NCBI GenBank assembly: GCA_950071955.1 | Contig: CATMOC010000006.1 | Coordinates: 1 to 19,194, forward strand | From: an uncultured Mesorhizobium sp. | GTDB taxonomy: Bacteria; Pseudomonadota; Alphaproteobacteria; Rhizobiales; Rhizobiaceae | DNA: 19,194 bases | Direction of reading: 5' to 3' | Part shown: piece by piece, positions 1,011 to 8,714 of the stretch | How positions within the stretch are numbered: the stretch's first letter is position 1 | Layout of the letters: each line of letters starts with the position of its first letter | Translations under genes and position numbers: made by a program | The notes under the pieces: model-generated | The model's input: the letters and a program-made list of their open reading frames with translations, nothing else | Databases searched by the model: none | Told to the model about the DNA's origin: nothing

Positions 1011-1075
1011 GCAAAGAACCCACCCGGACCTGCGGTCCGACCTTCCCGCGAGGGGGAGGTGAAAGACCCGCCGCC
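1011..1075. repeat. Palindromic intergenic element (two adjacent hairpins)
   Basis: The spacer between terminase and portal contains a short perfect hairpin, CGGACC (1025-1030) / GGTCCG (1034-1039), followed at once by an imperfect GC-rich hairpin, ACCTTCCC (1040-1047) / GGGGGAGGT (1052-1060). The same two-hairpin layout recurs near 5680-5710 and 9371-9413. It resembles the intergenic mosaic elements (RIME-like) scattered through rhizobial genomes. The family assignment is from memory and not verified. Confidence 0.55.
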
Positions 1076-1100
1076 ACGACATCAATCGAGGATGGACGAG

Positions 1101-2279
1101 ATGACATGGAATTGGCCGTGGGCGAGGAGCCCGGAGGCAATGGCGGCGCATGGCCGCGCGGCGGAGCGCAAGGATGCCGGCGGCATGGGCTTCGTCGCCC
1201 TGCACCTGCAGGCGGAAGCGAACTGGACGCGGCGGGATTTTTCGGGGCTGGCGCGTGAGGGTTACATGCGCAATCCGGTCGCGCACCGCTGCGTGCGGCT
1301 GATCACGGAGGCCGCGGCCGTGGTGCCGCTGCTCGCCTTCGAGGGCGGGGAAGAGCGCGCCGGCCATCCGGCCCTGGCGCTGCTCGACCGGCCGAACCCG
1401 CGCCAGGCCGGCGGGGCCTTCCTGGAGGCGCTCTACGGGCACCTCATGCTGTCGGGCAACGCCTATGTCGAACTGGTGACGACCGCGGGGGGCGGGCGGG
1501 AACTGCATCTCCTGCGGCCCGACAGGGTGAGCGTCGCCTGCGACGGGCAGGGCTGGCCGGTCGCGCTGGAGTATCGCGGGGGCACTGGCAAGCGGCGGGT
1601 CGCCCTCGGGGCGGGCGGGAGCGCGCTGCACCTTTCGCTGTTCCACCCGCTCGACGACCACTACGGTTTCGCGCCGCTGGAGGCGGCCCTCATGGCGCTC
1701 GACACGCACAATGCCGCCGGGCGCTGGAACAAGGCACTGCTCGACAATTCGGCCCGGCCTTCCGGCGCGCTGGTCTATGCGCCCAAGGACGGCGCCAACC
1801 TGACGGAGGAACAGTTCGACCGGCTCAAGGCCGAGCTGGAGCAGGGTTACACCGGCGTGACGCGGGCCGGGCGACCGCTGCTGCTGGAAGGCGGGCTCGA
1901 TTGGAAGGCGATGGGCCTGACGCCCAAGGACATGGATTTTGTCGAGGCGCGCAACGGGGCGGCGCGCGACATCGCGCTCGCCTTCGGCGTGCCGCCGATG
2001 CTGCTCGGCATCCCGGGCGACAACACCTATGCCAACTACGCCGAGGCGAACCGCGCCTTCTACAGGCTGACCGTACTGCCGATGATCGGCCGCACCGCGG
2101 GCGAACTCTCCGGCTTCCTCGGCGATGCCTTCGGCGCGCCGCTGCGGCTCTGGTACGACGCGGATTCCATCGAGGGCCTGTCGGTCGAGCGCGAGGCGCT
2201 GTGGCGGCGGGTCAACGCGGCGGGATTTTTGAGCGAGGACGAGAAGCGGGGAGCGGTGGGGTATGGCAGGAGGGAGTAG
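1101..2279 (+). CDS. HK97-family phage/GTA portal protein
   Basis: The portal forms the ring at the capsid vertex through which DNA passes and to which terminase and the tail bind. The 392-residue product has the usual HK97-type portal features: an N-terminal YMRNPVAHRCVRLI segment, the LSGNAYVEL strand, LFHPLDDHYGFAPLEAA, and the diagnostic block ARDIALAFGVPPMLLGIPGD followed by NTYANYAEANRAFYR at about residues 287-322. I chose the ATG at 1101 because GAGG at 1088-1091 sits nine bases upstream. In-frame ATG 1092 has the same GAGG touching it, and GTG 1059 would put the upstream palindromic repeat into the protein. The length matches GTA portals (RcGTA g3). The gene ends intact just before the foreign insert. 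Confidence 0.92.
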   Translation: MTWNWPWARSPEAMAAHGRAAERKDAGGMGFVALHLQAEANWTRRDFSGLAREGYMRNPVAHRCVRLITEAAAVVPLLAFEGGEERAGHPALALLDRPNPRQAGGAFLEALYGHLMLSGNAYVELVTTAGGGRELHLLRPDRVSVACDGQGWPVALEYRGGTGKRRVALGAGGSALHLSLFHPLDDHYGFAPLEAALMALDTHNAAGRWNKALLDNSARPSGALVYAPKDGANLTEEQFDRLKAELEQGYTGVTRAGRPLLLEGGLDWKAMGLTPKDMDFVEARNGAARDIALAFGVPPMLLGIPGDNTYANYAEANRAFYRLTVLPMIGRTAGELSGFLGDAFGAPLRLWYDADSIEGLSVEREALWRRVNAAGFLSEDEKRGAVGYGRRE

Positions 2280-2300
2280 GGAGTTTGATGGCCTGGGGCC

Positions 2301-2609
2301 TTGAGCAACGTTGAGACCCTTGAGGCCAATGCCTCAGCGAGCGCGAGCACAGCGGCACTGTCCGAGAACAACGCAGAGAGCGCGAAGGAGGATGCCGAGC
2401 AGGGATTCGCGGACTTCCACGCAGGACTTGACGGCGTTCCAAGCCTCAGTGGCGAGAACACTCGGCCGGAAGTGCACGCCTCCGGTTCATTCCCTGTGAC
2501 ACCTGAGGCTACCCCCACGGAAGATTACCAAACAAGCAACAAGAAATACGTAGAAGAGGAGATTTGGCTTCAATGGCATACACTGACGAAGAAGCACAAG
2601 ATGCCGTAG
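2301..2609 (+). pseudogene. Truncated phage tail-fibre segment (N-terminal piece of a split fibre gene)
   Basis: The frame begins only with a weak TTG right after a stop, without a convincing ribosome binding site, so it is probably the middle of a gene whose 5' part was lost. The first 40 residues are Ala/Ser/Glu-rich (EANASASASTAALSENNAES), as in the coiled or collagen-like shafts of tail fibres. Near residue 80 it reaches QTSNKKYVEEEI, which matches the common fibre hinge TKKYVDxxI. In known fibres this is usually followed by a sequence like YTDEEAQDAVG. Here that continuation is present but in the -1 frame, as the next gene. After the hinge this frame runs on with unrelated residues to a stop at 2607-2609. 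Either an indel split one fibre gene or these are two overlapping genes. Confidence 0.55.
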
Positions 2610-4228
2610 GCACCATTCTGACCGATACCGCCAATATCAAGTTCACTTACGACGATGCTACCCCCGAGATTTCGGCGGACTTGAGCACGTCCGCTCAGGC
2701 ATCGCTCGCGTCGGCTGACAGCGCTCTACAGAACGGAGACCACTGGACACTTTCTGGTGGCGACCTGTCCTACGAAGTTGGAGACATCTATGTAGGGGAC
2801 AGTGGTAATACCAGCGGTACCTCCCGGGCCGGGTTCAACGGGTCGAGGGCTGCTGTTGGATATAACGGAAGTGGAGCGTACAAGTATGGATACTTGGCCG
2901 GCGGTCCCGGCAAGAGTGCTCGTCTCATCACAGATGGAGACCAAACGAGGCTCGATATCCTAAGCAATGGTGAGATGGTATTTAGCACCGGAGCGGGGAA
3001 TGACGAGCGTATGCGGATTGCGGCCTCAGATGGGGCGGTATCTATCGCGGAGTCCCTGTCGGTCGGAGGTCAGGCTCTTGGTTCTGCGGCGTTCGCTGAC
3101 GTGGGGACCGCTCAGGACGACCTCAAGGCACTGAACAGCACAGGTGCTTTCTTGTTCGACCTCACGGCTAATCCCGCTGAAACCATCCCAAATCCTTGGG
3201 AAGGGGGAGCAGGAGGCGCGTACTCGAACTGGAGCATCAAGAAATACTCGAATGGAAACCATGTCGGTAACTCTTGGTGGGCCGCTGCAATCTCAAACGA
3301 GGTTGTCGGCTCTGGCGGTACGTCCACGAGTAGCCTTGATGGCGCTCTGTGGCTCAACTGCTGGAAGGATGGATGGCGTGACGGCCATACTCCCGGTAAC
3401 GGTGTTAAGGGTCCGATCACCACTCTCATGGTTGTCGCCAACAACAACGAGTGGGATGACACCGGTGCTATCGTCACAAGCGCGGCGCGGACCTACGGCA
3501 CGGAAGCCCTTACGAACACGAACGGCTCTCTTATGCAATACGAGGGTGGAAGTGTCGTCTGGAACTCTGCGGGAGACACTGTGCTGCGGGAACTCCACGT
3601 TCTCATCGGGTGGGATCACAACCCGCAACATGCGACGTTTCAAGCACTCCACCCCGGCGAGAACAGCGGCATCACTGTTGAGCCTAACACGGGGTCATCC
3701 TTTGCTGCCTATGTGGCTCAGGACGGAGGAGTTTTCGGTACTGGACGAGGTTTCAAGTACCTTCTCGTCCACGCCACGCACCGCAATGCTTCCACCATTC
3801 AGGTCCACCTGACTGGCACAGAACACGCGGATGGAAACGGGCTTCTTAGAGCCGGGGCGGGCACTGCCGCGCACCCCTCACTGTCCACTTACACTGACCC
3901 CGAGACGGGTTTCTATAGTGGCGGTAACGGTGTCATGAACTTCGCCACGAATGGTACGAGGACCATGGTCCTAGGCAACGGTCTCCGTCTAGGAAACCCG
4001 GCTGGCGGCGACATGGGCGTCGGCACCCTCAATGCTGCTGCGGCGATCTACGTCTGGGGAAGCAAGGTCGTTGACGACCGGCGAACCGGCTGGACTACGG
4101 CAACCGGCACGGCGACGAGGACTAGCTTTGCCACCAACACCGTGACGCTACCCCAACTGGCAGAACGTGTGAAGGCTCTCATTGACGACCTCCACGCTGA
4201 CGCTGGTCACGGCCTTATCGGAAGCTGA
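2573..4228 (+). CDS. Phage tail fibre-like protein of foreign (non-GTA) origin
   Basis: This 551-residue frame starts at an ATG with GAAGAGGAG (2553-2561) upstream; TTG 2564 is the longer alternative. The N-terminus AYTDEEAQDAVGTIL, then FTYDDATPEISADL, is a common phage fibre/structural-protein repeat. Residues ~140-160 (ILSNGEMVFSTGAGNDERMRI) and ~460-475 (GVMNFATNGTRTMVL) are two copies of a fibre module. The C-terminus LPQLAERVKALIDDLHADAGHGLIGS resembles conserved phage structural C-termini. The middle is Gly/Asn/Trp-rich and unrecognised; it is a candidate receptor-binding domain. I see no catalytic motif. The frame is undamaged over 1.6 kb, so the insertion is recent or the protein is under selection. 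Codon use is unlike the flanking GTA genes. Confidence 0.72.
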   Translation: MAYTDEEAQDAVGTILTDTANIKFTYDDATPEISADLSTSAQASLASADSALQNGDHWTLSGGDLSYEVGDIYVGDSGNTSGTSRAGFNGSRAAVGYNGSGAYKYGYLAGGPGKSARLITDGDQTRLDILSNGEMVFSTGAGNDERMRIAASDGAVSIAESLSVGGQALGSAAFADVGTAQDDLKALNSTGAFLFDLTANPAETIPNPWEGGAGGAYSNWSIKKYSNGNHVGNSWWAAAISNEVVGSGGTSTSSLDGALWLNCWKDGWRDGHTPGNGVKGPITTLMVVANNNEWDDTGAIVTSAARTYGTEALTNTNGSLMQYEGGSVVWNSAGDTVLRELHVLIGWDHNPQHATFQALHPGENSGITVEPNTGSSFAAYVAQDGGVFGTGRGFKYLLVHATHRNASTIQVHLTGTEHADGNGLLRAGAGTAAHPSLSTYTDPETGFYSGGNGVMNFATNGTRTMVLGNGLRLGNPAGGDMGVGTLNAAAAIYVWGSKVVDDRRTGWTTATGTATRTSFATNTVTLPQLAERVKALIDDLHADAGHGLIGS

Positions 4229-4244
4229 TAGGGCCACACTCTTG

Positions 4245-4270
4245 CTCCTCTCGCAATTCGGCGGGAGGGG
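4245..4270 (+). terminator. Hairpin after the fibre gene (possible attenuator/terminator)
   Basis: CTCCTCTCGC (4245-4254) pairs along all ten positions with GCGGGAGGGG (4261-4270), including two G-T pairs, around a six-base loop. Only a weak T-containing tail (catccctt) follows, so partial termination or mRNA-end protection is as likely as full termination. Confidence 0.35.
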
Positions 4271-4311
4271 CATCCCTTCGAACTAAACACACACAGGAAA
4301 GGAACACACAT

Positions 4312-4584
4312 ATGAAGATCAATTTCTCTCAGACTGTCATGGCCCCTAACGGCGAGGAACTCGACGTGAACCTTGGCCAGATTTCGGTGATGGCACTCAA
4401 CGCACCCGAGAAGGAACCTCTTGGGCTGGACGAAAGCATTCGACGCGGCTCCCTTGCTCTCAAGGTAAAGGACGGCGGCGAGATTGAGATTAAGCCTGAG
4501 GATGCGGCGATGATCCGCAAGAACCTCCCCAAGGCATGGGCACCGTTCATCGTCGCTCAGGCAGCACAGATGCTGGACGGATAA
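4312..4584 (+). CDS. Small phage protein of unknown function, 90 aa
   Basis: The start ATG is preceded by a strong purine-rich site (AGGAAAGGA, about eight bases upstream). The product is soluble, acidic and compact, with no signal or membrane segment. It reads like a small, well-folded alpha/beta protein: MKINFSQTVMAPNGEELDV, a central region with LGLDESIRRGSLALKV, and a C-terminal helix APFIVAQAAQMLDG. It recalls small uncharacterised proteins beside fibre and lysis genes in podoviruses, but I cannot name a family. The gene lies between the fibre-like gene and the holin-like gene with short spacers and the same A/T-richer composition, so it arrived with them. Confidence 0.7.
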   Translation: MKINFSQTVMAPNGEELDVNLGQISVMALNAPEKEPLGLDESIRRGSLALKVKDGGEIEIKPEDAAMIRKNLPKAWAPFIVAQAAQMLDG

Positions 4585-4590
4585 TCCCCA

Positions 4591-4860
4591 TTGATAGACG
4601 ACAAGAGCCTGACACAGGAACTCTTGGTCACGCTGGGCAGGATCGACGGTCAGAACAATCTGATCCTCTACCGCCTAGACAGACAGGTAGAATGGCAGGA
4701 CGAGATTACCAAAGAGGTATCTGAGACCAAGGAGCGCGTGACGAAAGTCGAACGCCGCCTTAACTGGTACCCTGCCTACGCGGCTGGGGCTGCGGCTACA
4801 GTCGGCGCGGCTGTCTACGCCCTCAAGGGCTGGATCGCGGGGTTCCTCCCCAATGGCTAA
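4591..4860 (+). CDS. Holin-like membrane protein with N-terminal coiled coil (foreign phage segment)
   Basis: The 89-residue product starts at TTG, six bases after the preceding stop, with a weak upstream GGATAA. Residues ~1-55 are charged and heptad-like (EITKEVSETKERVTKVERRL), predicting a coiled coil. Residues ~60-85 (YPAYAAGAAATVGAAVYALKGWIAGF) form one membrane-spanning helix. Coiled coil plus a single C-terminal membrane segment is the layout of XhlA/T7 gp17.5-type lysis proteins, and a location after a tail-fibre gene also fits a T7-like holin slot. The stop overlaps the next start (ATGGCTAA), which suggests translational coupling. The function is inferred from topology and position; a spanin-like or structural membrane protein is possible. 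Confidence 0.6.
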   Translation: MIDDKSLTQELLVTLGRIDGQNNLILYRLDRQVEWQDEITKEVSETKERVTKVERRLNWYPAYAAGAAATVGAAVYALKGWIAGFLPNG

Positions 4861-5008
4861 GAGAACCACTGAACAAACTCTCGATGGGCTGTTTGATGCC
4901 TTCGTCGAGCATTTCGGGAGTGTCCGATTGATTGGGTGCGGGGCGGCCGTGGCGGGTCATCAGCGGATCACGGCCGGCAAGCGTTCCGGGAAGAGTACAG
5001 CGAACTGA
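4853..5008 (+). pseudogene. 5' fragment of a foreign phage gene, possibly terminase small subunit
   Basis: An ATG overlapping the holin-like stop opens MAKRTTEQTLDGLFDAFVEHFG, a short polar helical N-terminus of the kind seen in small phage DNA-binding or terminase small subunits. About 20-25 codons in, around 4918-4935, composition switches to GC-rich. The frame then reads a meaningless stretch antisense to the IS256-type remnant, ending at a chance TGA (5006-5008). So only the first ~65-75 bases look like real coding sequence. A terminase small subunit is suggested mainly by the order fibre-holin-TerS in T7-like phages, not by a diagnostic motif. Confidence 0.4.
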
Positions 5009-5112
5009 GGGTAGTCTGCACGCCATTCGATGGCCGGCTTCCAGTGGACGCCGACATTGCGCAAGGCGAGGAAGATCAGCTTGAGAGTGGAGCAGAGGCG
5101 CCGCGACGCAAC
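4960..5112 (-). pseudogene. Remnant of an IS256-family transposase (C-terminus only)
   Basis: On the minus strand, from 5088 down to the stop at 4962-4960, the frame reads TLKLIFLALRNV, then HWKPAIEWRADYPQFAVLFPER, then LPAVIR-stop. This fits the C-terminal tail of IS256/Mutator-type transposases: a KLIxLALRN helix, spaced tryptophans, and an NQFAI-F-ER-like motif. Reading further upstream in this frame (5088 to ~5120) gives no convincing transposase sequence, and the DDE core is absent. The element is therefore a deleted, inactive leftover. The region just left of the stop, starting near 4917-4925 (GGGAGTGTCCGATTGATTGG), may be the original IS terminus, but I cannot confirm its inverted repeat. 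The family call rests on pattern memory. Confidence 0.6.
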
Positions 5113-5126
5113 CAGGAAATATCGAG

Positions 5127-5468
5127 ATGAGTGACCTCTCCCAGGCCGCGTGGCTGTGGGCGGCGAAGGGCGTGGGCGCGGTGGCGGGATCGGCGATCTC
5201 GCTGGTCTACGTCCTGCCGCGCGACCGCCGCGAGGCGGCGATCCGCTTCGCCGTCGGCACCGCCTGCGGCCTCGTCTTCGGCGGCGTGGCCGGGCTGAAG
5301 ATCGCGACCGAACTCGGCATCGACGAGGAGATCGGCGCGGCCGAGACCATGCTGATGGGATCGGCGGCCGCGAGCCTCTGCGCCTGGTGGGCGCTGGGCT
5401 ACGCGATGCGGGCGTTCCGGAAGGATGGGCGGGGCACCTCCGCCGATGACGAACGCGTGACGAAATAG
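5127..5468 (+). CDS. Small membrane protein in the GTA g3.5 position, 113 aa
   Basis: The ATG has AGGA at 5114-5117, nine bases upstream, and composition returns to GC-rich here, so this is part of the original cluster rather than the insert. Three hydrophobic stretches are visible: residues ~13-29 (AKGVGAVAGSAISLVYV), ~41-57 (AVGTACGLVFGGVAGLK) and ~75-95 (LMGSAAASLCAWWALGYAMRA). They are followed by a short charged tail. RcGTA also has a small gene between portal and protease, and rhizobial GTA-like clusters carry similar small membrane proteins there. No function is known to me. Holin-like or head-assembly roles are both possible. Confidence 0.75.
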   Translation: MSDLSQAAWLWAAKGVGAVAGSAISLVYVLPRDRREAAIRFAVGTACGLVFGGVAGLKIATELGIDEEIGAAETMLMGSAAASLCAWWALGYAMRAFRKDGRGTSADDERVTK

Positions 5469-5774
5469 CGGCGTCCGGTAGGGTGCCGGGATCGACGCCG
5501 GTGCTGGAACGCGCCTGCCGATGGCGGATCCTCGGGATAGGCCAAGGATGACGCCGCGCGGCGAATATGACGCCTCGTCAGGGTTCTAGTTCGGGTCCAC
5601 GGACGGCGGGCTGCTGGAAGCACCCCCTTACCGTCTCGCCTCGCGAGCCACCGTTCCGGGGCGAGCCGCTTGTCTCGCGCGTCCTTCGGACACCCCCGAT
5701 GGGGGGCGAGGAAGGGCGGTGCCGACCGCTCGGCGGCTTGGCCCACGCACAACTATCGCAACCGGAGCAAGATC
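5469..5774. repeat. Intergenic gap with partial palindromic element (core about 5616-5720)
   Basis: This 306-base gap has no convincing gene. A weak inverted repeat CGGCGTC (5469-5475) / GACGCCG (5494-5500) follows the g3.5-position gene. From 5618 on, AAGCACCCCCTTACCGTCT repeats, with one change, the left end of the long palindromic element at 9352. GTCC-TTC-GGAC and CCCCCGATGGGGGG hairpins near 5681-5706 give the same two-hairpin layout as at 1025-1060. The matching right end (CGGTGAGGGGGTGCTT) is missing, so this is a degraded or half copy. It ends shortly before the protease ribosome binding site. Confidence 0.55.
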
Positions 5775-6428
5775 ATGACGAACGGGACCACTGGTTCCTG
5801 GGCGCGGAAGCGCGCGCCTGGGGGGCTGCGGCGAATGGCGTATGCCGGGGACGACCGGGTGGCGGGGAATCGCGGCGCCGGCGGGCTGCCGGTGGGGAGT
5901 GCCCGGCTCGCGGCCGGGGAGGGACGCTTTTCCGGTTATGCGAGCCTCTTCGGCGTCGCCGATCTCAGCCGCGACCGGGTGGAGCGCGGCGCTTTCGCGC
6001 GGTCGCTGCGGGACAAGGGATCCGCCGGCATCCGCATGCTGTTCCAGCACGATCCGGCGGAGCCGATCGGGCGCTGGACGGCGATCCGGGAGGACGGGCG
6101 CGGCCTCTTCGTGGAAGGGATCCTGGCGCCCGGCGTGCAGAAGGCGCGCGAGGTGCTCGAACTGATGCGGGCCGGCGCCATCGACGGACTGTCGATCGGA
6201 TTTCGGACGATACGCGCCGCGCCAGAGGCGCGAAGCCGCGTGCGGCGGATCCTCGAGGCAGACCTGTGGGAAATATCCGTCGTGACATTCCCGATGCTGC
6301 CGGGCGCGCGCATCGGCGAGGTAAAACGCGCGGCACAGGAGGTCGCGACGGACGGAATGGCCCGCCAGCTGCGCGCCGCGACGAACATGATCAACCGCCA
6401 AACGATCCAGCGAAAGGACAAGGCATGA
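5775..6428 (+). CDS. HK97-family prohead protease (peptidase family U35/S78)
   Basis: The product cleaves the delta domain from the capsid precursor during prohead maturation. The family core starts at residue ~52 with FSGYASLFG and SRDRVERGAFARSL. The putative catalytic residues are visible: His92 in LFQHDP, Ser140 in DGLSIGF and Glu166 in LWEISVV. I chose ATG 5775 (GGAG at 5764-5767, seven bases upstream). The longer in-frame ATG 5670 would translate the palindromic spacer. The 217-residue length is normal, with a basic, Gly-rich 50-residue N-terminal extension before the core. The stop overlaps the capsid start (ATGA), so the two are translationally coupled. It is the counterpart of RcGTA g4. 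Confidence 0.92.
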   Translation: MTNGTTGSWARKRAPGGLRRMAYAGDDRVAGNRGAGGLPVGSARLAAGEGRFSGYASLFGVADLSRDRVERGAFARSLRDKGSAGIRMLFQHDPAEPIGRWTAIREDGRGLFVEGILAPGVQKAREVLELMRAGAIDGLSIGFRTIRAAPEARSRVRRILEADLWEISVVTFPMLPGARIGEVKRAAQEVATDGMARQLRAATNMINRQTIQRKDKA

Positions 6429-7678
6429 CCGACCCCATGGCAGCACCCGAACACAAGGCCGGGATGAAGCCGCCGGAGGACGCCAGCGGCGCCTTCGGCG
6501 AATTCATGAACGCCTTCGAGGCTTTCAGGGAAGCCAACGACCAGCGGCTCGCCGAGATCGAGGCGAAGGCGACGTCCGACGTCGTCACCGTCGAGAAGGT
6601 CGACCGCATCAGCCAGGCGCTTGACGCGCAGAAGAAGGCGCTGGACGGCATCCTGCTGCGCCAGGCGCGGCCGGCGCTCGGCCGGCCCGAGGCGCTGACG
6701 GTGAAATCCGAACATGCCTCGGCCTTCGAGGCCTATGTCCGGTCCGGCGACGACCGCATGCTGCGCTCGATGGAGCAGAAGGCGATGTCCTACGGCTCCG
6801 GCCAGGACGGCGGCTACCTCGTTCCGGAGGAACTGGAGACGGAGATCGGCAAGCGGCTCGCCGCGATCTCGCCGATCCGCTCCATCGCCTCGGTGCGGCA
6901 GGTCTCCAGCGCGGTGCTGAAGAAGCCCTTCGCGGTGAGCGGTCCGGCCGTCGGCTGGGTCGGCGAGACGGCGGCGCGTCCCGAGACGGCGAGTTCGACG
7001 CTGGCGGAACTGCAGTTCCCGACGGCGGAACTCTACGCCATGCCGGCGGCGACCGCGTCGCTGCTCGAGGATTCGGCCGTCGATCTCGACCGCTGGATCT
7101 CGGCGGAGATCGAGACCGCCTTCGCCGAACAGGAGGGCACCGCCTTCGTCACCGGCAACGGGACGAACAAGCCCAAGGGCTTCCTCGACTACACGCTCGT
7201 GGCGGAGGCGAGCTGGGAGTGGGCCAAGATCGGCTACATCGCCACCGGCGTGGACGGAGCGTTGCCGGCGGCCGACCCGTCGGACATCCTGATCGACCTC
7301 GTCTACGCGCTGAAATCCGGCTACCGGCAGAATGCCAACTGGGTGATGAACCGCAAGACCCAGGCGGCGATCCGCAAGCTGAAGGACGACGACGGCAACT
7401 ATCTCTGGCAGCCGCCGGCAATGCCCGGCGCGCGCGCCATGCTGATGGGTTTCCCGCTGGTCGAGGCGGAGGACATGCCCGACATCGCCAGCGACGAGAC
7501 GCCGATCGCCTTCGGCGACTTCGCCCGCGGCTATCTGGTCGTCGACCGGACCGGGGTGCGCGTGCTGCGCGATCCCTATTCCGCCAAGCCCTACGTGCTC
7601 TTCTACACGACCAAGCGCGTGGGCGGCGGCGTGCAGGACTTCGACGCCATCAAGCTCCTGAAGTTCGGCGTGAGCTGA
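6425..7678 (+). CDS. HK97-fold major capsid protein
   Basis: This is the main head subunit, 417 residues. The first ~110 residues form the scaffolding-like delta domain with a predicted coiled coil (RLAEIEAKATSDVV to about residue 75). The mature shell domain probably begins near residue 110-120, at the MSYGSGQDGGYLVPEEL segment typical of HK97 capsids. Later hallmarks are LQFPTAELYAMPAATASLLEDS, the FVTGNGTNKPKGFL loop, WVMNRKTQAAIRKLKD and the C-terminal VLRDPYSAKPYVLFYTTKRVGGGVQDF. It overlaps the protease stop by ATGA and is followed by a strong tandem-hairpin terminator. A much longer upstream in-frame extension (to 5567) is chance open frame. It is the counterpart of RcGTA g5. Confidence 0.95.
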   Translation: MTDPMAAPEHKAGMKPPEDASGAFGEFMNAFEAFREANDQRLAEIEAKATSDVVTVEKVDRISQALDAQKKALDGILLRQARPALGRPEALTVKSEHASAFEAYVRSGDDRMLRSMEQKAMSYGSGQDGGYLVPEELETEIGKRLAAISPIRSIASVRQVSSAVLKKPFAVSGPAVGWVGETAARPETASSTLAELQFPTAELYAMPAATASLLEDSAVDLDRWISAEIETAFAEQEGTAFVTGNGTNKPKGFLDYTLVAEASWEWAKIGYIATGVDGALPAADPSDILIDLVYALKSGYRQNANWVMNRKTQAAIRKLKDDDGNYLWQPPAMPGARAMLMGFPLVEAEDMPDIASDETPIAFGDFARGYLVVDRTGVRVLRDPYSAKPYVLFYTTKRVGGGVQDFDAIKLLKFGVS

Positions 7679-7809: not shown

Positions 7810-8382
7810 ATGGCGCTTTTCCGAACCAGCGGGCCCGACGCGGAACCGCTGACGACAACCGAATGCAAGGCTCATCTGCGCGTGAGCCATTCGAGCGACG
7901 ACGACCTCATCGCCGGGCTGATCCGCGCGGCGCGCGAGGAGGTGGAGCGGCACACGGGGCTCGCGCTGATCGACCAGGACTGGCGGCTGGCGCTGGATTG
8001 CTGGCCGCGGAGCGATCCCGTGACGATCCCGCGCCATCCGGTGAAGCAGATTCTCTCGGTGACCACCTACGGGTCGGAGGGCGAAGCCTCGGAGCTCGAC
8101 CCGGCAAGCTACCAGCTGGATCCGCTGTCGCGGCCGGCGCGGCTGCATTTCGAAACCCGGCCGTCGCCCGGCATCGCCATGAACGGCATCGAGATCGATT
8201 TCCGCGCCGGTTTCGGCGAGGCCGGGACGGACGTGCCGGACCTCCTGAAGCGGGCGATGATGCTTCTGGTCGCGCACTGGTACGAGTTCCGCGCCGAATA
8301 TGGCGCCGCAGACCAGCCGGTCTCGCTGCCCGAGGGATACCAGCGCCTGGTCGCGGGGTTCCGGGCGAGGAGGCTGCTGTGA
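7810..8382 (+). CDS. Head-tail connector/adaptor protein (gp6-like)
   Basis: This 190-residue protein matches the phage gp6/phiE125 gp8-like head-tail connector group, which sits under the portal and bridges to the closure protein. Visible hallmarks are LTTTECKAHLRVSHSSDDDLIAGLI with AAREEVERHTGLAL near the N-terminus (residues ~14-56), the AHWYEFRAEYG motif near ~158-168, and the terminal YQRLVAGFRARRLL. The ATG at 7810 opens just after the capsid terminator with only a weak ribosome binding site (gaagaag). The last codons overlap the next start (GTGA). It is the counterpart of RcGTA g6. Confidence 0.87.
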   Translation: MALFRTSGPDAEPLTTTECKAHLRVSHSSDDDLIAGLIRAAREEVERHTGLALIDQDWRLALDCWPRSDPVTIPRHPVKQILSVTTYGSEGEASELDPASYQLDPLSRPARLHFETRPSPGIAMNGIEIDFRAGFGEAGTDVPDLLKRAMMLLVAHWYEFRAEYGAADQPVSLPEGYQRLVAGFRARRLL

Positions 8383-8714
8383 GGAGGCGCGGGATCGACC
8401 CAGGCGCGTTGCGCACGCTGTTCTCCCTCCGGGAGGCGGCGCCGGTGCCCGACGGCGCGGGCGGTCATACGCTGGAGTGGAGCGAAGTCGCAACCGTCTT
8501 CGGCCGGCTCGAGCCGGTTTCGGCGCAAAGCCGATTCGGCGCCGACCAGGCGATCGAGACCGTCTCGCACGACGTGACGATGCGCCGCCGGGACGACGTC
8601 CGGAGCGGCATGCGGCTCGTTTTTGGTGCGCGCGTGCTTACCATCGTGATGGTGCACGACCCCGACGGGACGGGCCGCTATACGCTCTGCCGGACACGTG
8701 AGGAGGGGCAATGA
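8379..8714 (+). CDS. Head closure / head-tail joining protein (SPP1 gp16-like)
   Basis: The 111-residue product begins at GTG 8379, overlapping the adaptor stop, with an AGGAGG-like sequence inside the first codons and GAGGAGG at 8368-8374 upstream. It has the layout of the phage head-tail joining family: a short N-terminal strand (LRTLFSLREAAP), a Trp-containing VFGRLEPVSA segment, then DVTMRRRDDVRSGMRLVFGARVLTIVMVHDPDG, a beta-barrel closing ring around the portal channel. It is the counterpart of RcGTA g7. It ends with an ATGA overlap to a small downstream frame. Longer in-frame starts (from 7863) lie inside the adaptor gene and are not credible. Confidence 0.85.
   Translation: MRRRGIDPGALRTLFSLREAAPVPDGAGGHTLEWSEVATVFGRLEPVSAQSRFGADQAIETVSHDVTMRRRDDVRSGMRLVFGARVLTIVMVHDPDGTGRYTLCRTREEGQ

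Follow-up and report, generated by a model that had tools for sequence, protein, structure and literature searches.

The window analysed here is a stretch of 19,194 nucleotides from an uncultured Mesorhizobium sp. (assembly GCA_950071955.1, contig CATMOC010000006.1), and forms one entire contig of a metagenome-assembled genome (MAG) of 611 contigs that is about 70% complete. It contains a gene transfer agent (GTA) cluster, in which large terminase (terL), portal, DUF6107, protease, capsid and tail genes and GTA_TIM follow each other in one run, as in other RcGTA-like clusters. Read against the expected RcGTA gene order, and with GTA_TIM and DUF2460 proteins recognised among the head and tail genes by profile searches, the cluster is, as judged here from its genes, a rhizobial RcGTA-like GTA cluster. 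It differs from its counterparts by 2.85 kb (2847 bases) of apparently foreign DNA between the portal gene, which ends at 2279, and the DUF6107 gene, which starts at 5127, both flanking genes being whole. The features of this block and of its surroundings are listed in Table 1.

Table 1 Features of the foreign block and of the adjoining GTA genes, in coordinates of the window
Feature	Position	Strand	Basis
GTA large terminase, 5' end lost at contig end	1..1010	+	PF17289 (5.6e-26), PF03237 (2e-19)
GTA portal gene, intact	1059..2279	+	Identity 59-77% among the matches listed
Left junction, approximate: G-rich tail resembling that of G003 (same genus), followed by a phage frame that is open from 2289	2280..2289		By eye
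3' fragment (102 aa) of a putative fibre-type gene, Ala/Ser-rich, 5' end missing	2289..2609	+	Frame reading
Phage fibre ORF, 551 aa from ATG 2573 (554 aa from TTG 2564)	2573..4228	+	phrog_1219 tail needle (1.8e-6), residues 487-527 (41 residues)
12-bp hairpin between fibre and p90 genes	4243..4272	+	Minimum free energy -26.2 kcal/mol for 4225-4300, z -3.55; unmatched in terminator scan
p90 (90 aa), small tailed-phage gene	4312..4584	+	Identity 53% to G036 prophage, 63% to L077, 60% to L078
89-aa ORF, weakly holin-like	4591..4860	+	phrog_5225, no function (2.4e-5); phrog_689 holin (0.0027)
Beginning of a further, cut gene; 3' edge approximate	4853..4930	+	ORF 4853-5008 running into the IS remnant
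C-terminal fragment (54 aa) of IS256-type transposase, 5' edge approximate	4963..5110	-	Frame and plasmid matches
GTA DUF6107 gene (g3.5 position), intact	5127..5468	+	PF19602 (1.3e-34)
ORF with GTA head maturation protease	5670..6428	+	phrog_80 (1.7e-50), residues 83-232
GTA major capsid	6425..7678	+	PF05065 (5.4e-93), profile matched in full

From left to right the block holds a fragment of 102 amino acids (aa), a 551-aa fibre open reading frame (ORF), a hairpin, a small gene referred to as p90, an 89-aa ORF, the cut start of a further gene and, on the minus strand, the tail of an insertion sequence (IS) transposase. Its GC content is 0.56-0.60, compared with 0.63-0.73 in the rest of the window. 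The GC content at third codon positions (GC3) is 0.63 for the fibre, 0.69 for p90, 0.74 for the 89-aa ORF and 0.66 for the fragment, while 12 of the 13 cluster ORFs measured lie at 0.83-0.93; the thirteenth (7863-8711, GC3 0.63) overlaps g6 in another frame. The three short block ORFs also deviate from the cluster in codon usage (cosine 0.76-0.77), a noisy measure for short genes. An earlier note on this DNA had reported a block with these coordinates, ORFs of 551, 90 and 89 aa and a drop in GC content, all of which is confirmed. Its proposal that the block is foreign, derived from a phage and outside the GTA gene set is likewise supported by the break in composition, together with the relatives that the fibre and p90 have in viral contigs.

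A counterpart of the fibre ORF lies on the viral contig L078, with 33% identity over 329 aa (E-value 1.5e-43). The alignment begins only at residue 215 of the L078 fibre. Residues 1-137 of the L078 fibre resemble the N-terminal parts of other fibres, and nothing in the window ORF corresponds to them. The distant protein homologues returned number 18 and share mostly a short motif with the window ORF; in all of them at least 30 residues come before the motif at which this ORF begins. Fibres normally attach to the virion by their N-terminus. Because the start motif is internal in 18/18 homologues and the N-terminal region of the L078 fibre is without counterpart, the window fibre appears to have lost its virion-attachment part, and the ORF does not combine an N-terminal attachment region with a distal part as a complete fibre would. 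The fibre had been described as undamaged, which is correct for its open frame and does not extend to its start. The 102-aa fragment, for which profile and sequence searches returned no significant homologue, would be of fibre type according to its composition and position. It overlaps the 551-aa ORF by about 45 bases, and the two may be one gene with a broken frame or two native overlapping genes. Structure prediction for the fibre was uninformative (mean predicted local distance difference test score 27.7).

The 89-aa ORF had been called holin-like, and a holin profile match is indeed found; it is weak, and the best-matching profile has no function assigned. Hydropathy shows a charged N-terminus and a hydrophobic C-terminus with one modest hydrophobic stretch. 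The first 26 aa of the cut gene that follows gave no family match. The transposase fragment matches plasmid sequences with identities of 45-58% (best E-value 1e-4), five of the ten listed out of 33 matches being annotated as IS256 family; it gave no Pfam match, and a search of 41 genomes returned none beyond its own place. By sequence similarity it belongs to the IS256 family for this fragment only (E-values of 1e-4 and weaker): what the window shares with IS256 family insertion sequences is the C-terminal 54 aa of the transposase, and unlike them it holds no more than this piece. No prominent repeats bounding the block were seen among the 20 of 30 direct-repeat families listed. With both of its ends clipped and an IS remnant inside, the block is not a clean fibre-plus-holin module; the earlier note had recognised the three ORFs and missed the 5'-cut fragment, the cut gene start and the IS256-type tail. 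An NCBIfam search with seven proteins gave no match, a promoter scan of the window found none, and a terminator scan gave a single match, on the minus strand, where 2.0 are expected from shuffles.

Searches of 174 loci with the pieces of the block located the fibre in a single viral contig, and p90 in four viral contigs and one prophage; they gave no match for the remaining pieces, and none of the relatives' GTA loci covered by them carries block genes. The p90 relatives lie in a prophage-like region of the family genome G036 and in the viral contigs L077 to L080. In L077 and L078, p90 is located between fibre and lysis genes, and in G036 it is located 3' of fibre-type genes (lysis genes were not looked for there). 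The donor of the block is, from this gene neighbourhood, a tailed phage, because the p90 relatives adjoin fibre genes in the prophage and in two viral contigs. The window shares with these fibre/lysis regions the position of p90 3' of fibre genes, lysis genes coming next in L077 and L078, as well as a fibre resembling that of L078; it differs in that its piece includes neither the N-terminus of the fibre nor the remaining phage. As single sequences, the fibre, p90 and the 89-aa ORF had no match in 50,697 phage records or in viral contigs, and neither did the G036 p90 in the phage records; a two-row p90 alignment matched four viral loci. A search of genome contigs with p90 returned none, and in 394 genomes of the family it was found only in its own genome and in G036, while the alignment matched only its own genome among 385 genomes of the class.

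The junction at which the block lies is variable among relatives. In 126 genomes of the family (that of the window included), for which portal and DUF6107 were both among the matches listed (searches with 249 and 277 matching genomes) and on one contig, the gap between the two genes has a median of 59 bp and exceeds 500 bp in 24 and 1000 bp in 17; this set excludes G223 (two contigs) as well as G179 and G324, whose matches lie on different contigs or strands. A set of named loci, which overlaps with the former and consists of the 77 with DUF6107 among the best 80 of 238 portal matches, has gaps of more than 500 bp in 35/77. The next four steps after DUF6107 exceed this length in 4/72, 0/69, 0/60 and 0/44 named loci, which end about 5 kb past the portal, so that big later inserts would drop out (n falls from 77 to 44), and in which the g6-g8 step spans g7. 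Comparison of 35/77 with 4/245 gives 5e-21 in a Fisher test, in which independence is overstated since the species are related. As a further control, six later single junctions in 14-kb stretches of 40 genomes exceed 500 bp in 3/235 and 1000 bp in 1/235 cases (g6-g8 and g10-g12, which span a gene, are excluded from the 235), one g8-g9 gap measuring 1868 bp. On the other side of the portal, the terL-portal junction is longer than 500 bp in 43/72 named loci. Both portal-adjacent sites take up DNA more readily than later junctions, because gaps are long there and rarely so at the later steps. The earlier note had considered that the block, if neutral, is a fresh scar that may uncouple the portal from protease and capsid expression; insertion at the portal-DUF6107 junction is evidently tolerated, because other lineages carry inserts there.

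Taken together, it seems quite likely that the block is foreign phage debris, trapped where the GTA head operon has a permissive site for cargo. A clipped piece of a tailed phage, comprising the fibre, p90, the 89-aa gene and the first part of the gene after it, would have lodged with an IS256-type tail in the portal-DUF6107 gap. The joining could have been illegitimate, for example by Ku-dependent end joining, and the genome encodes Ku; bacterial end joining with uptake of foreign DNA is said to have been described by Dupuy and others in 2019, reportedly in Sinorhizobium. Alternatively, the block could be the leftover of a larger island after deletion. The phage piece is probably a passenger and not an upgrade, and, with the N-terminal attachment part of the fibre seemingly gone, the block may do little. 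The block itself adds to the phage debris seen in bacterial genomes; its host locus is unusual.

Several observations weigh against this interpretation. The portal-DUF6107 gap exceeds 500 bp in only 4/40 of the genomes with 14-kb stretches, a figure that is not a prevalence since these genomes were picked for long contigs with their portal gaps known beforehand, four long-gap genomes being in and others out. Inserts at the site are also scarcer in close relatives than among the named loci. Within the block, a GAGGAG motif stands 11 nt upstream of ATG 2573, which would allow the fibre to be an untruncated, native second ORF. The codon usage of the fibre (cosine 0.92) falls within the range of the GTA genes and, unlike the GC content and GC3, does not set it apart from the cluster. 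The three full ORFs of the block are open and all run in the GTA direction, as they would in a module that is kept. Finally, p90 and the 89-aa protein were found on many contigs in a protein collection, so the block DNA is not rapidly decaying.

An assembly chimera, in which a phage contig was misjoined into the GTA contig of a fragmentary MAG, is unlikely, though it is the alternative that best survives. It would fit with the number of contigs and the incompleteness of the MAG, with a window that is an entire contig, with block edges that both lie inside genes of foreign DNA, and with the fibre search of the protein collection giving no copy of the fibre itself, although p90 and the 89-aa protein are both present there (longer forms of the fibre elsewhere would fall outside the length limits of that search). 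It would however need two misjoins that return to exactly the right neighbour; the window contains no N, and by eye a short native-looking leader is left at both edges. The protein collection lists a single p90 sequence, from 29 contigs, and two sequences of the 89-aa protein, from 34. The longest of these contigs has 597,771 bp, which is more typical of a piece of bacterial chromosome than of a phage. These listings argue for a real chromosomal piece, the neighbours on those contigs being unseen.

The earlier note had also suggested that the GTA gained a fibre and a holin which could change its recipient range or release. This is not upheld and appears very improbable, even though the frames are open in the GTA direction and the adjoining GTA genes retain their domains: the fibre apparently has no N-terminal part, the evidence for a holin is weak, GC3 is still foreign, the edges consist of cut genes and an IS remnant, and block genes are absent from the relatives' GTA loci searched. 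That the block is an ancestral GTA or prophage module retained here and lost elsewhere is scarcely credible, since, although the GTA ancestor was a tailed phage and would have had fibre and lysis genes, the composition is sharply different, the genes are missing from the relatives' GTA loci searched, and the median portal-DUF6107 gap in the 126 genomes is as short as given above.

The main value of the locus lies in the site, as junctions on both sides of the portal take unrelated genes in many relatives and later head and tail junctions rarely do. The cargo differs among relatives and includes ParDE-like, AlkB-like and HipA-like genes and polymorphic-toxin-like ORFs. Examples are a ParE toxin (5.2e-11) and its ribbon-helix-helix partner (2.6e-5), an AlkB-like 2OG-Fe(II) oxygenase (9.1e-13) and, in G035, a HipA-type protein (2e-47) that has a helix-turn-helix partner. 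Cargo ORFs were profile-scanned as examples only, and most were without a convincing match, many without any. ParDE-like pairs were seen in the portal-DUF6107 gaps of L133, L145, L172, L173 and others, and an AlkB-like oxygenase in many Rhizobium-type loci; profiles were checked for one of each, and the listing took only ORFs with a GC3 bias.

The polymorphic-toxin-like genes start 8-35 bp past the portal match or are fused to a duplicated portal C-terminus. In G297 (L082:2142-2825), the first part of the ORF duplicates the portal C-terminus, and a CdiA-CT RNase A domain (2.3e-17) forms its end; G280 (L086, reverse strand, 1289-1804 on that strand) has a weaker match to CdiA-CT RNase A, just under the family cut-off. 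A 60-residue domain at the start of several cargo ORFs was found in 38/247 genomes of the family, directly 3' of the GTA portal in eight; it occurs at other genomic places too and is not restricted to GTAs. Behind several of the toxin-like ORFs lie small genes, which may be immunity genes; those scanned against profiles and NCBIfam gave no convincing match.

This arrangement recalls the MuF polymorphic toxins of temperate phages, which are described as encoded immediately 3' of the portal gene and carrying a variable toxin C-terminus (PMC5576092). The likeness concerns the portal-adjacent toxin-like cargo of G297, G280 and G209 and not the window block, as the profile scan of the window ORFs gave no toxin or MuF match; the relatives' cargo differs from MuF toxins in its GTA host locus, and no MuF match was found in the cargo ORFs scanned. 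It is conceivable, though on balance doubtful, that the rhizobial GTA portal is flanked by cargo sites holding conflict genes, polymorphic toxins included, that toxins may travel in GTA heads to recipients without the matching immunity gene, and that the phage piece in the window is a recent occupant of such a site. Should toxin-like cargo enter particles, GTAs would not only carry genes but also act as weapons or kin filters. The titles and opening parts of abstracts of open-licence literature on GTAs and polymorphic toxins, on GTAs with toxin-antitoxin, portal or Rhizobium, and on RcGTA-like clusters with inserted genes mention no cargo beside the portal.

Short repeats of the GGCGAATGG or GGTGAATGG type follow the portal stop at L047:3955-4070 and in the gaps of L049 and L052. 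Those of L047 fold into a long hairpin in the gap (-58 kcal/mol, z -5.2), which might favour breaks. Rfam and tRNA scans of the window gave no match. The window DUF6107 is 72-76% identical to those of the same-genus genomes G002, G003 and G004, and had no match in G001 (threshold 1e-3), also of this genus. G001 is listed with a completeness of 100%; a portal match at 1e-60 was likewise lacking there, and its GTA head genes may be lost or divergent. The true start of the protease ORF is probably located further inside than the coordinates in Table 1 indicate.

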